Assembly (NCBI RefSeq): GCF_009939295.1
Contig: NZ_WVIC01000026.1
Coordinates: 1-64,000, forward strand
Reading direction: 5' to 3'
Source: Petrachloros mirabilis ULC683
Lineage (GTDB): Bacteria > Cyanobacteriota > Cyanobacteriia > Thermosynechococcales > Thermosynechococcaceae
Length of the DNA: 64,000 nt
How positions within the stretch are numbered: position 1 is the stretch's first letter; each line of letters begins with the position of its first letter. Position numbers and translations under genes: made by a program. The notes under the pieces were generated by a model. That model searched no databases and was not told the DNA's origin. It worked only from the letters and a program-made list of their open reading frames with translations. Below are positions 3,378 to 28,411 of the stretch, piece by piece.

Positions 3378-6300
3378 GCGGGTGAACATGGGCTAGCGGG
3401 TGGTTCCCACGCACCATGAGCAGGTGGGCCGCTGGGATATAGAAAAGAGCCAGGAGGGTGGCACCCCCCAGTCCCCCGGCGATCGCAATTGCCAGGGGTG
3501 GCCAAAAGCCGGTTCGATCCAGGATCAGGGGTATGAATCCGGTAATAGTAGTGAGCGTGGTGGCCAGCACATGGCGGGTGGCGTCCATGACCACGGCTTC
3601 GGTCGCCTGGGGGTTGCCCTCGCGGGCAGCGGGGTCGTCGCGGAGTGCCGCTAGCACCACGATGGAGTCGTTGATGGCCAGACCAATTAGCCCCAGGGTG
3701 CCCAGGATGGCGGTGAAGCCAAAGAGCGATCCAAATAGCTTCAGAGCCAGAGCCGCCAACCCCACCGACAGCAGCGCCACGGAGCCAATCAATGCCGCCA
3801 ACCCAAAGGAGTTAAACGAGAGTACCAGGGTGGCCGTCATCAGGATCCCCAACAGCCCCACCGTGGAAAGGAGATTGGCGATCGCGTCTCCTCTGGCATC
3901 CGCTTCGCCCCCATATTCCAGTCGATAGCCGGAGGGAAGCTGCCAGTGTTGTTGGGCAAGCTGTTGCTGAAATTGGGTCAGAACTGTATCCGGCAATGAG
4001 CCAGCGCTCAGGAATCCCAGGACTGTATTGAGCCGCTGACCATTGCGACGGGTGATGGTGGCCAGGTCAGGTTCCAGGGTGACGGTCGCTAGGGCGGAGA
4101 GCGGCACCGTGCCATTGGCGGCGACCAGATCGAGGGAAGTCACCGGATCGAGATGACCCCGTTGGTCATTGGGCACCCGTACCCGCACAGGAACGGTCTC
4201 CGTGGCATCGAGGATAGATCCACCCACAGTGCCATTGAGGGTGGTTTGGAGTTGCTGAGCAATGGCTTGATGATCAACCCCTGCCCGGCGAGCCTGTTCC
4301 TCGTCAACCTGCAAGGCCAGCTTGGGCAAAGGGGTGCTGAGGCTGGCGCGGGTATGGGTCACGGTGGCCAACTGCGACAGTTCGGCCCGCAGGGTGTTGC
4401 CGATTTCGCGCAGTTGCCCCGTATCAGGGCCATAGAGGCGCAGTTCAATGGGGGCTTCAAAGGGGGGGCCTTGCTCAAGCTGCTTCACCAAAATTTGAGC
4501 ATCTGGAAAGGCGCTATCTAGATCGGCTTGCAGGGCTTGAATGGTTTCGCGAACCTGTTCGGTGCCCTTGAGTTGGACAATGCCCTGGGCATAGTAGGGG
4601 GCATTTTCCTGGCTATTGACCACGTTATAGAAAAACGCGGGGGCGCTTTTGCCCAGAAACCAGTGCACCTCTGTCACAGCGTCGTGGTGACGGATGCGAT
4701 CGCGCGCAGCTAACACCACCGACTGGGTTTGAGTCATGGCACTGGCCTGGGGCAGTTGCACCTCAATTTGAAACTGATCGCGGTTGGTGGGCGGGAAAAA
4801 TTGCTGCTCTAGGGAGCCAAACACGGCAAATCCCACCACCGGCAGGACGAGGGCTAATGCCACCCCCGACCAGGGATGCCGCAACACCCATTGGAGTGTC
4901 CACCGATAGCCAGCAGTCAGAACTGGACTGCTCAGCCCCCCGTTCCACCCCACCGCTTGTGCGCCCAGGGGATGCCAGCGATGCAGGCGTCCCGCTAGGG
5001 CGGCAATCACCGTCAGGGACAAAAACAGGGAACTGATCAAGGCCAAAATGACGGTTAAGCCAATGGTGCCAATGAATTCTCCGGTACTCCCCGATGAGGT
5101 GGCAATGGGCACAAAGGCCAGCACCGTAGTGAGGGTTGAGGCCAGCAGCGGCACAAACAGATGCTGCACCGTGGTGCTCACCGCCTCAGATGGAGTAAGG
5201 CCCGCTTTGAGTCGCCCTTGCACCTCCTCTACGACCACGATGGCGTTGTCGATCAACAACCCCAAGGCAATAATCAGACCCGTGACCGACATCTGGTGCA
5301 GGGGTACGCCCAGGCCCTGCATCCAGCCCAACACCATCAGCGTCGTCAGGGGCAGGGCAGCCCCCACCAGGAGCGCTGCCTTCCCCCCCAGCATCAGCCA
5401 GGACACGGCCACCACCAGCAGCGATCCAGAGATAAGATTGCCGATGACGCCATTGAGCCGCTGTTGTACATATTGGCTTTGATCCAGCACCACCCGGAGC
5501 CCCAAACCGTCGGAGAGGGTGGCCTCAAACTCGGCCAGCACGGCTTGGGCTGCTTGCGCCCAGGCATCTACCCGATACTGGGACTCGACCGTGGCCGCCA
5601 CCCCCACAGCGGCATGCCCCCCCACATAGGCTAGCGCCGCTGCCGGATCCTGAACCCCTTGACTCACCTGGGCAATCTCGCCCAATCGAGCCACCGCCCC
5701 TCGCTCTCCGACTTGAATGGGGATGGCACGAATCCGCTCTAGGGAGTCTAGGGCACTGTTGACTTCCAGCAGCAATTCACTGCGATCGCTGCGGATCTGC
5801 CCAGCGGCAACCTTGGCATCACTGGCGGCAATTTGCTGGGAGAGGGCCTGAGCCGTTAGCCCCAGTCGAGCTAGATCACTGGCGGCAATGTCCACGCGAA
5901 TTTCTTCATCGGGCTGGCCAAAGCGCTCTACTTTGCCCGTGCCGGGGAGCGATCGCAGCCGCTCCTGCAAGCTCTGGGCCAGTCGCCCCAAAATCACGTA
6001 GTTGGGCTCCCCCGGCAGTTCCCAGGTCAGTCCCACAATGAGGGCGCTAGCACTGACGTTGCTGTCCCGGTATTCTGGGTCAGAGGCCTCTGGGGGCAAC
6101 TCGGGCACCGCATCATCGATTTTGGAGCGCACCCTGGCCCACACCGGATCAACATTGCGGATAGACTCCTTGAGGGCCACCGAGATTATGGAAATGCCAG
6201 TTCCGGAACTAGAGGTCAAAGCGTCAATTTCCTCCAGCTCCAGGAGTCGATTTTCCAGGGGCTCGGTGACCAGAGACTCCACCCGCTCCGGCGTGGCTTC

Positions 6301-6450
6301 AGGCAAAAAGGTCACCACCTGGGCATTGCGCTGGGTGATTTCCGGATCTTCCATGCGGGGCAGGGTGAAGAGGGCGGAGACGCCCCAAACCACCACCAGG
6401 ATGAGGGTCAAAATCAGGAGCTGGCGATTGCGATAGAAGGCATTCAACAT
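3370..6450 (-). CDS. RND efflux pump permease (HAE1/AcrB type)
   Basis: A 1026-residue inner-membrane proton-driven exporter. It has the classic duplicated RND layout: TM1 near residues 10-30, a first periplasmic loop to about 330, TM2-6 at about 335-490, TM7 near 525-545, a second periplasmic loop, and TM8-12 from about 850. TM4 contains LGLLIDNAIVVVEEV, so the two proton-relay acidic positions of AcrB are Asp401 and Asn402. The TM10 equivalent reads LIGLAINDSIVVL, without the AcrB lysine. It is the second gene of a two-gene unit after the adaptor, with 16 bp between them. No outer-membrane TolC-type gene is nearby. Substrates are unknown; control by the divergent PadR regulator is likely from context. 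Confidence 0.93.
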   Translation of the reverse strand: MLNAFYRNRQLLILTLILVVVWGVSALFTLPRMEDPEITQRNAQVVTFLPEATPERVESLVTEPLENRLLELEEIDALTSSSGTGISIISVALKESIRNVDPVWARVRSKIDDAVPELPPEASDPEYRDSNVSASALIVGLTWELPGEPNYVILGRLAQSLQERLRSLPGTGKVERFGQPDEEIRVDIAASDLARLGLTAQALSQQIAASDAKVAAGQIRSDRSELLLEVNSALDSLERIRAIPIQVGERGAVARLGEIAQVSQGVQDPAAALAYVGGHAAVGVAATVESQYRVDAWAQAAQAVLAEFEATLSDGLGLRVVLDQSQYVQQRLNGVIGNLISGSLLVVAVSWLMLGGKAALLVGAALPLTTLMVLGWMQGLGVPLHQMSVTGLIIALGLLIDNAIVVVEEVQGRLKAGLTPSEAVSTTVQHLFVPLLASTLTTVLAFVPIATSSGSTGEFIGTIGLTVILALISSLFLSLTVIAALAGRLHRWHPLGAQAVGWNGGLSSPVLTAGYRWTLQWVLRHPWSGVALALVLPVVGFAVFGSLEQQFFPPTNRDQFQIEVQLPQASAMTQTQSVVLAARDRIRHHDAVTEVHWFLGKSAPAFFYNVVNSQENAPYYAQGIVQLKGTEQVRETIQALQADLDSAFPDAQILVKQLEQGPPFEAPIELRLYGPDTGQLREIGNTLRAELSQLATVTHTRASLSTPLPKLALQVDEEQARRAGVDHQAIAQQLQTTLNGTVGGSILDATETVPVRVRVPNDQRGHLDPVTSLDLVAANGTVPLSALATVTLEPDLATITRRNGQRLNTVLGFLSAGSLPDTVLTQFQQQLAQQHWQLPSGYRLEYGGEADARGDAIANLLSTVGLLGILMTATLVLSFNSFGLAALIGSVALLSVGLAALALKLFGSLFGFTAILGTLGLIGLAINDSIVVLAALRDDPAAREGNPQATEAVVMDATRHVLATTLTTITGFIPLILDRTGFWPPLAIAIAGGLGGATLLALFYIPAAHLLMVRGNHPLAHVHPPI

Positions 6451-26235: not shown

Positions 26236-26394
26236 AGAAAAACATGCTTATTGATCAAAGAGCAACACAGTCATCTAGAACTAGACAACGACCTCTAAGC
26301 CATTGCCCAAATGCAAACATTCGGTGCTGCACATCCGATGACTTGCTCTTATAGCGTAGCGAAGTTAACCCCGTGAGGGGCTTTAGGAGCAACA

Positions 26395-27951
26395 ATGTCG
26401 CTAGAACTGACCACTCTGGGTAATCTGAAAATACCCCCCCAGAGGCAAGCTATGGGCAAGGTACCATTTTCCCCCTTTGATGATGATGTTTCCCATGAGC
26501 TGAGTTGGGCACCTGCACAGGATCAGCCCATGGATCTTGGACAGGCACTCACGCATCAGCTTTCCCCTTTTCCAGTCGAAATACAGGCACACATCCAGGC
26601 AGGCAGTCTCCACATTAACCTCCTGGCCTCAAGCGCCCTAGAGCGCCAGGAAACAGTAGAGCACATTCAACAAGTGCTCTCCGACTTAACCCTTCCAGAT
26701 ATTCATACCGTTCAGCTTCGGTGCCAAATCAGCCAAGATGCAAGTACCCAGTGGCAGCAGGTGTGGTTTTGGCCGGGGAAAGCCCCCTTACCAGAGGCAC
26801 AGTCCCGGTTGGCGCTGCGAGACCAAGCCAGCCAAGGTCATTTGGTCGCCATGGCAACCCTAGTACAGCAGACCTTGGTTCACAAGCAGGTACAGGTTCA
26901 AGCAGCCCAAGCCGATGACCGGCTATGGCTATTTTTAAGTGCAGATCACCCCCTAGAGCCCCAACCCTGTGCAATTTTGGTGTGTCGAGAGCTCATACAG
27001 TGGTCTTGGCAGTCCCTAGAACTCAAGCAGGTCATCCTAGCTAGTCCTAGCCCGCAGCTAGCTTGGGGTTGGCTGCGCGAACTGAGCGTAACCCCAGTGT
27101 CAGGACTGACTTCAATTGCCCAGATGGCAGTAGGAAAGCACCAAGGCGGCTCCTGCCGTCGTCCCATTCAGGGTGTAACCCCTGATCAAGAGCTGCCAAT
27201 TCAAACTTTAGACAGAGAAACCTGGCAAGTGATTGCAGCCAGCCTTTTTTTGGCTGTGCTGATCATGCTTTCTTCTCAGGTGAGCTTTTTTGTGAGTGTC
27301 TTGATTACCGCTATCCATGAGCTTGGGCATACAGCCTTCGCCTGGCTGTTTGGCTACCCCGCAATTCCAGCTTTTGACTTTTTACATGGGGGCGGTATCA
27401 CCTTCTACACCCAACAACGATGGCCAGTTTTGGTATTTATACTCTACTTTGGCTTGGGCTATTTGCTCTATCGCTATCGTCACAACGCCCTCATGTCCAG
27501 ATATGTGCTGGGCACTTTGGTACTGTATAGCCTATGTCTGCTGACCCAGGGACAGGATATTCTGATTGCGGCCATGGGGCATGGCTTTGAACTCCTCTTT
27601 GCGGGTATTTTTCTCTACCGTAGTTTAAGTGGGTTTGCTTGCCGACATGCTATTGAACGTCCGCTTTACGGCATGTTGGGGCTGTTTACAGTCCTGTATA
27701 ACCTCAAATTCACCCAAAGCCTTCTGTTTAATCCGATGTTTCGCGCTCAATATCAAGAAGGCAAAGGCGGCCTACTTGATCATGATCTGATCCGTCTGGC
27801 GCGAGACTATCTCCACCTACCCTTTAATGGCGTGGTGGGATGCTTCTGGCTGAGCAGTTTGCTCACCCCTGTGGGGGTCTTTTTGCTCTATCGCTATCGG
27901 TATTGGGTGCTTTCTCACTTGCAACACTGTCTGCGGCTTGCCCACCGGTAG
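26395..27951 (+). CDS. Membrane protein with HELGH metalloprotease-like motif and soluble N-terminal region
   Basis: A 518-residue protein I can describe but not name. Residues about 45-130 and 145-225 look like two related alpha/beta units, each with a hydrophobic strand-helix pattern and a W-rich end. They are reminiscent of a small repeat found in cyanobacterial proteins. From about residue 275 there are at least six hydrophobic helices. The second contains TAIHELGHTAFAWLFGYPAI, an HExxH zinc-ligand motif placed in a membrane helix as in M50 site-2 proteases. A downstream NPDG-type M50 motif is not evident, so catalytic activity is uncertain. AGGAG precedes the ATG. The gene stands alone between msrA and a degraded stretch. 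Confidence 0.7.
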   Translation: MSLELTTLGNLKIPPQRQAMGKVPFSPFDDDVSHELSWAPAQDQPMDLGQALTHQLSPFPVEIQAHIQAGSLHINLLASSALERQETVEHIQQVLSDLTLPDIHTVQLRCQISQDASTQWQQVWFWPGKAPLPEAQSRLALRDQASQGHLVAMATLVQQTLVHKQVQVQAAQADDRLWLFLSADHPLEPQPCAILVCRELIQWSWQSLELKQVILASPSPQLAWGWLRELSVTPVSGLTSIAQMAVGKHQGGSCRRPIQGVTPDQELPIQTLDRETWQVIAASLFLAVLIMLSSQVSFFVSVLITAIHELGHTAFAWLFGYPAIPAFDFLHGGGITFYTQQRWPVLVFILYFGLGYLLYRYRHNALMSRYVLGTLVLYSLCLLTQGQDILIAAMGHGFELLFAGIFLYRSLSGFACRHAIERPLYGMLGLFTVLYNLKFTQSLLFNPMFRAQYQEGKGGLLDHDLIRLARDYLHLPFNGVVGCFWLSSLLTPVGVFLLYRYRYWVLSHLQHCLRLAHR

Positions 27952-28411
27952 GGGAGCGTCTATTGGAACTGGATTTATGGCAGCAGCCTGCTGAAACCCA
28001 ACAGTTTCCCTATGAAGTAGACTGGCAGCGGCTCTGTCTGGCTTTTGATTCAGAGGGTGGTTCCCACGCCCTTTGATCAACCACTAGCGATCGCAGCTGC
28101 GGCGATTGGGCAGTGGCCTAGTCTACTGGGGGATCGGACGATGGGCTGGCTTGAGCGTGCCAAGTCTGTAAGAGGCGGTTTGAAAAGGTGCTAACGCCTT
28201 GCACCCGCCCCCTAAATCCCCCATTCTGGGGGACTTAAGCGTGATCAAAACCCTCCAGAATGGGGGGTTGGGGGGCAGATGTAGAGCATGGGAAGACCTT
28301 GAAAACAGCCTCTAAGCTTACAAATCATTTAGGATCGCTATACACTGCCCAAGTTGCTCAGAACCAGCAACAAAAGGCACTTTTGCCCCTTACTGAACCG
28401 ATTTAACCCGC
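27952..28411. other. 460-bp gap with a possible decayed frame and a G-rich palindrome
   Basis: A frame overlapping the HELGH gene end reads LLELDLWQQPAETQQFPYEV and continues to a TGA near 28076. Skipping one G in the GGG near 28053 lets it continue (PTPFDQPLAIAAAAIGQWP...) to about 28196. This could be a frameshifted gene remnant, but I do not recognise it. The rest is the palindrome at 28207-28285 and an unassigned queC leader in which I see no preQ1 riboswitch. Confidence 0.3.
28207..28285. repeat. G-rich palindromic repeat
   Basis: Contains CGCCCCCTAAATCCCCCATT followed by CTGGGGGA, and after about 20 bp CCTCCAGAATGGGGGGTTGG. The block matches, in inverse orientation, stretches at 46089-46127 and 46988-47023 that share CCCCCAGAATGGGGGAT and AGGGGGCGAATGCA. 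It is a dispersed palindromic intergenic repeat. Confidence 0.6.

Follow-up and report, generated by a model that had tools for sequence, protein, structure and literature searches.

Intramembrane proteases control membrane signalling, and site-2 proteases (S2Ps) are commonly recognised by HExxH together with NPDG or LDG. In the window, that is the whole 64,000-nucleotide stretch of Petrachloros mirabilis ULC683 DNA analysed here, the gene at 26395-27951 (+ strand) encodes a membrane protein that carries the first of these signatures without the second. Is it a protease of the site-2 kind, a membrane protein using its zinc motif for another role, or one in which HExxH arose by chance? Our preferred answer, to which we give a probability of about three in four, is that the gene encodes a putative divergent site-2-type (M50 clan) intramembrane zinc metalloprotease.

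A duplicated soluble front precedes a predicted seven-helix membrane core

The open reading frame starts with ATG, five bases downstream of an AGGAG that by eye resembles a ribosome-binding site (26385-26389, + strand). Its 518 residues comprise an N-terminal pair of repeats and, in the AF2 model, a metalloprotease-like membrane core of seven helices. The first soluble repeat (residues 50-120; 26542-26754) is modelled as alpha-beta-beta-alpha-beta-beta and matched the repeat profile with an i-E of 1.3e-9; the second (residues 141-208; 26815-27018), also seen in the model, matched it at 9.4e-11. A sequence-only reading of this DNA had described a seemingly duplicated soluble domain ahead of the membrane part, and the profile matches bear out two copies of about 80 residues. 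The same reading had put HExxH inside a hydrophobic helix, and HELGH (residues 308-312; 27316-27330) indeed falls within predicted helix 294-318. It was also right that no NPDG or LDG is visible; another conserved set is present instead, consisting of GHxxE (residues 395-399) and D464.

The predicted core appears to resemble site-2 proteases

AF2 modelled the full chain with a pLDDT of 83.5 and a pTM of 0.66, residues 1-45 being of low confidence, and the membrane core alone (residues 274-500; 27214-27894) with values of 95.4 and 0.91. Helices are predicted at residues 274-292, 294-318 (with HExxH), 344-360, 365-383, 386-412 (with GHxxE), 421-445, 447-455, 464-473, 477-500 and 502-513. The HExxH helix is followed by a beta-hairpin (residues 323-338; 27361-27408; strands 323-328 and 333-338) with GGG at 332-334, which in the models is positioned like the membrane re-entrant (MRE) beta-loop of S2Ps. 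GHGFE (residues 395-399; 27577-27591) lies in the fifth helix, and DHDLIR (residues 462-467; 27778-27795) at the N-terminus of helix 464-473, which begins at D464.

By comparing the core with 995 chains in VIA, we found S2Ps at ranks 1 to 5, namely E. coli RseP (7w6y, 7w6z, 7w6x), B. subtilis SpoIVFB (8vjl) and M. jannaschii S2P (mjS2P; 3b4r), with Z scores of 5.2-6.6 over 117-143 residues and rmsd of 4.3-6.8; the next rows had Z of 4.3 or less, and every Z was under 8, a level that alone can reflect a common arrangement. First, counted from where the aligned range begins, HExxH stands at an offset of 16 residues in the model, in RseP (H22) and in SpoIVFB (H43) alike. Second, D464 precedes the range end by 11 residues in the RseP row and by 12 in the SpoIVFB row, against 10 for D402 and 11 for D137, offsets that show consistency and not a residue alignment, as VIA ranges are end points only. 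Third, HExxH also fits in mjS2P, but the end offsets agree less well, D148 lying 25 residues before the range end and D464 19, so gaps intervene. The RseP positions H22 and D402 were verified on the K-12 sequence. For SpoIVFB, H43, H47 and D137 are numbered according to the accessible part of PMC9042235, and the accessible part of PMC7728848 gives HExxH in TMH1, an Asp ligand in TMH3 and the MRE beta-loop as S2P features.

At these modest Z scores, the modelled core appears to resemble M50 site-2 proteases: RseP, SpoIVFB and mjS2P are its best VIA matches and appear to have in common with it the register of HExxH, a beta-hairpin and a late aspartate. In contrast to these three, our protein lacks NPDG/LDG as well as PDZ and CBS domains, HExxH and D464 are separated by four helices in a span of about 150 residues, and E399 is an additional invariant glutamate. 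Searching with the core alone, Foldseek returned no significant match (best E 0.71). Among the 50 listed rows of the VIA comparison of the core there was no M48 or M56 entry, an absence that excludes nothing. In a structure search with the full-length model, the N-terminal repeats accounted for the lists; the best entry, 4hlb (alpha-lytic protease prodomain-like; Z 9.1, rmsd 2.8, 84 residues), and the assorted ring-building, KH and ribosomal domains after it were set aside as fold resemblance only.

Sequence profiles relate part of the core to M50B

The protein itself scored below the Pfam gathering thresholds for M50 (PF02163; 16.7 bits against 27.2) and Peptidase_M50B-like (PF13398; 16.4 bits against 26), and NCBIfam gave no match for it and no model at cut-off for ten relatives. 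Sequence searches of the PDB returned one irrelevant weak match with the protein and nothing significant with the repeat profile; with the core profile, a viral VP4 stretch (E 0.026) was dismissed as spurious. Among relatives, 20 of 41 family members matched PF13398 at E <= 0.01, the best at 8.2e-7, and a member of the sister family described below (L091) reached 29.5 bits against the same cut-off of 26.

We then compared the core profile with canonical M50 sets. With canonical M50B, hhalign gave Prob 94 over 75 columns that span HExxH and the hairpin only, and a forced global alignment, of low confidence, paired D464 with the aspartate of the "SD" block, which is invariant in M50B. The canonical cyanobacterial M50B set (30 loci returned, 29 usable ORFs) has the common blocks HEMGHG, GSG, GPMGPP-like, GVQA and SD; the last three were not found in our protein, and none of the 29 ORFs has GHxxE, unlike this family, or an invariant acid at the position of E399. 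What our protein has in common with PF13398 is HExGH in the second predicted membrane helix, a glycine-rich hairpin region and a late invariant Asp. Matches to other canonical M50 types covered 48 columns around HExxH (CBS type) and 32 columns (RseP type), and one stretch in the EGY-like type was rejected as spurious. The same genome also holds five canonical M50 ORFs with LDGG (L156-L160), by eye one RseP-like, two EGY-like and two with CBS-like tails. In the accessible part of PMC4284730, cyanobacterial S2P homologues (Sll0528, Slr0643, Sll0862 and Slr1821) are defined by HExxH and NPDG; like them our protein is a cyanobacterial membrane protein with HExxH, but it lacks NPDG. A literature search, mainly open-access, yielded no paper on the mechanism of PF13398 and none that we recognised as describing this protein family.

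The sequence-only reading had raised the prospect of a new type of membrane metalloprotease. The metalloprotease-type character of the protein and its duplicated soluble front stand, but a wholly new type goes too far, since the predicted core appears to resemble M50 S2Ps and L091 passes the M50B cut-off. Sequence and model rather point to a variant branch of the known M50 kind with its own active-site signature and a predicted function. This branch has been missed or weakly tagged as M50B-like, yet its set of site residues stays invariant across bins labelled as nine phyla.

Five putative site residues are invariant in the intact sequences examined

Conservation was read from two overlapping sets. 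The first came from profile searches, in which HExGH was kept in 76 of 77 homologous ORFs; H308, E309, H312, E399 and D464 were identical in all 76 intact sequences (58 of this family and 18 of the sister family). The second came from a scan with the patterns MGHG[FL]E[LI][LI]F and Wx[FM]GY[PA][AS][IVL]P[AS]; it partly overlaps the first, some of its loci being the same records, and all 40 of its ORFs kept HExGH. In the 41 sequences aligned from it, H308, E309, G311, H312, W317, G320, P325, GGG332-334, G395, E399, E421 and D464 were invariant, which for E399, as for the conservation of H396, is partly by construction, HExxH and D464 lying outside the patterns. In the hairpin, G332 was kept in 58/58 family members. 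R467 has exceptions (L134, L138, L142) and is not invariant.

H396 marks the family: it was present in 57/58 members and in 0/18 of the sister family, the exceptions that we noted being K in L084 and its loss from the second L147 gene. L147 carries two adjacent homologues with overlapping open frames (4719-5630 and 5339-6352) in one alphaproteobacterial bin; where GHxxE would stand, the second reads GLGAE.

The third zinc ligand, whose conservation the sequence-only reading had proposed to check, is most likely D464, as predicted from the range ends relative to D402 of RseP and D137 of SpoIVFB; the motif is non-canonical, and the residue is identical in 76/76 intact sequences. Homologues without HExxH, which if common would have spoken against that reading, are not common in the sample, amounting to one of the 77 sampled ORFs plus two further orthologues of that one.

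Putative pseudoprotease paralogues have lost the five residues together

These exceptions are second copies in the cyanobacterial family of genome G211. This genome has an intact copy (L009) and a 499-residue open frame (L019/L195) with FDIGQ replacing HELGH. Across its family the intact copy was found in 6/6 genomes and a second copy in 3/6 (L195 in G211, L196 in G989 and L197 in G991), the latter two being 65% and 45% identical to L019/L195. HELGH is changed to FDIGQ, YDFGQ and ADMGQ in the three orthologues: both HExxH histidines are gone, E309 is replaced by Asp, and neither E399 nor any part of the D464 segment, which is deleted, remains. G311, G320, GGG332-334 and E421 are retained, and in L197 so is a His at 396. 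W317 and P325 are altered too, so that the loss extends beyond acids and histidines. That residues far apart in the chain were lost jointly while the frame stayed open suggests that these residues form one site and that the second copies are a conserved pseudoprotease.

Two alternatives bear on these data. If HExxH were a chance occurrence in an unrelated membrane protein that is no enzyme, the weak Pfam score and the Foldseek best E of 0.71 would be as expected. We give this next to no credence: it is contradicted by conservation over bins of nine labelled phyla and by the joint loss of the site in the pseudoproteases, and with HExGH retained in 76/77 and 40/40 homologous ORFs the motif is not a matter of chance in this protein either.

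The other concerns the ligands. M48 and M56 gluzincins combine HExxH with a Glu third ligand in a later helix. By analogy, E399 of GHxxE could hold the zinc while D464 orients or gates, giving an intramembrane protease still, with ligands unlike those of M50. In favour of this, E399 matches D464 in invariance (76/76), its place is in the middle of the fifth helix, and none of the three pseudoproteases, which lack HExxH, has kept it. However, the 29 canonical M50B ORFs have no invariant acid there and keep the Asp that the forced alignment sets on D464, and the structure ranges put D464 near the S2P Asp ligand. We consider the gluzincin-like site unlikely and retain the M50-type site with D464 as its predicted third ligand.

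Proposed mechanism

Starting from the motifs, their conservation and joint loss, and the predicted fold, all of them observed, we infer the following roles in zinc binding, catalysis and domain function. A single zinc would be held within the membrane by H308, H312 and D464, and E309 would activate a water molecule. The beta-hairpin after the HExxH helix may present an unwound transmembrane substrate, as in RseP, and E399 with H396 in the fifth helix may act in the second shell or in substrate positioning, a role specific to this branch. The repeat pair would serve as a cytosolic adaptor for choosing clients or controlling access; other lineages have a zinc ribbon in its place or lack the domain.

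The pseudoproteases invite a comparison with iRhoms, which the accessible part of PMC3149277 presents as rhomboid pseudoproteases. In both cases a paralogue of an intramembrane-protease relative lacks the catalytic residues (PMC3149277, same part), but here the parent is metalloprotease-like and three cases were found, in bacteria. Only tentatively would we go further and propose a distinct intramembrane metalloprotease family with a five-residue site (H308, E309, H312, E399 and D464, with H396 as family mark), a zinc environment unlike that of solved S2Ps, exchangeable reader domains in the cytosol and, within a single cyanobacterial family, a conserved dead paralogue regulating the active one as a metalloprotease counterpart of iRhoms; we rate this full picture as doubtful. 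The extra membrane glutamate and the paired pseudoprotease make two ideas testable, namely that the S2P zinc site is variable and that dead S2P-like copies act as bacterial regulators.

The N-terminal repeat is shared with other proteins and conflicts with the charge-based topology

The repeat profile that matched both copies was built from seven copies in other proteins and run against a small ORF database. Elsewhere the repeat stands ahead of PGA_cap, CD225 and pentapeptide domains, and also of zinc-ribbon-like and SGNH/DUF1574-like parts with Pfam scores under cut-off. No Pfam or NCBIfam model scored above cut-off over the roughly 80-residue repeat in the proteins scanned. This genome has four copies in three proteins. 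More widely, this cyanobacterial repeat is joined to many unrelated domains (L154, L155, L015-L018, L020, L021). In other phyla, and in the non-photosynthetic cyanobacterial relatives L012-L014, an N-terminal CxxC..CxxC stretch often replaces the repeat, as judged by eye. Such a lineage-dependent swap of the N-terminal domain suggests an adaptor role.

The membrane orientation gives conflicting signals. Over 75 members, the mean net charge is +1.95 for the TM3-4 loop and +2.28 for the C-terminus, the basic segments of our protein being residues 359-366 (27469-27492) and 499-518 (27889-27948). A positive TM3-4 loop and C-terminus would lie inside, and the N-terminus of a seven-TM protein would therefore be outside. 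The N-terminal domains look cytosolic, because by eye the repeat is followed by a hydrophobic stretch and an exported-type domain in some proteins (L021, L017) and occurs without such a stretch in others (L020, L154, L155). The N-out topology suggested by charges thus conflicts with cytosolic-looking N-terminal domains; one helix may be non-spanning, or the positive-inside rule may fail here.

The family is patchily distributed and has a sister family

When searched with the single protein, 386 genomes from the phylum yielded 18 with a match, some to the repeat alone. Within the window's own family the core profile matched 24 of 29 genomes, the match in G398 being to the sister family. In the cyanobacterial class it matched 115 of 388 genomes, a sample that contains most of the window's own family: 54 strongly, at E <1e-50 (this family; the window's own family accounts for 23), and 61 weakly. 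The 18 weak genomes that we examined, chosen along the ranking, yielded a sister family. Its members have HExGH, in most cases G[IV]GGE, and a conserved Asp late in the chain; hhalign aligned it with this family at Prob 97.9 over 215 columns. Sister-family members (L091, L092, L094-L108, L047) often have a J-like or repeat N-terminus.

A first scan of genome contigs with the single protein gave 19 pattern matches, none of them confirmed. The later pattern scan found 39 loci in Cyanobacteriota, eight other labelled phyla (Pseudomonadota, Myxococcota, Actinomycetota, Gemmatimonadota, Acidobacteriota, Bdellovibrionota, Thermodesulfobacteriota and Lentisphaerota); the labels are those of metagenome bins, two further records carry none, and misbinned contigs may be included. 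In the phylum of a Desulfomonile genome, 1/198 genomes matched, which was the seed itself, and in that of a Gemmatimonadota genome 3/150: two seeds, plus L151, which is an RseP-type M50 with LDGG. Outside cyanobacteria, the family is sparse in the two phyla sampled.

Genomic neighbourhood

By eye, a divergent methionine-sulfoxide-reductase-like (MsrA-like) ORF lies upstream of the gene, and QueC-like and QueD-like ORFs downstream. Across 50 loci there is no general neighbour. The largest non-core cluster, of peroxiredoxin-type genes in three sub-kinds by eye, was found at six loci, as a raw count: Thermosynechococcus L057 (7792-8442), L117 (5787-6257) and L120 (5787-6284 and 2547-3203), L109 (5873-6469), and Picosynechococcus L061 (3112-3747) and L139 (6496-7131). 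In L109, L117 and L120 a BCP-like ORF is directly downstream on the same strand. The remaining clusters cover five loci or fewer and consist of abundant families or near relatives. The description of the gene as stand-alone is fair, but not absolute given these 6/50.

A real metal site could also serve a non-proteolytic role, such as lipid or small-molecule hydrolysis or metal or redox sensing, with the zinc-ribbon and repeat domains as sensors. The patchy distribution fits this, as does the lack of a known substrate and of a widely common neighbour, the peroxiredoxin-type genes notwithstanding. We regard it as very unlikely: the five best VIA matches are peptidases with a consistent HExxH register and hairpin, and the catalytic Glu is invariant. 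The proposal that the zinc motif was kept for another role likewise finds little favour: in the intact members examined neither the catalytic Glu nor the putative ligands vary, and the pseudoproteases have lost them jointly. The site-2-type protease remains our reading of the gene.

Just downstream of the gene, at 28196-28290 of the window, lies an imperfect, MITE-like palindrome. It is predicted to form a strong DNA hairpin (z -4.05) and occurs at 91-100% identity in at least 40 places in the genome, itself included (40 of 203 candidates scored).
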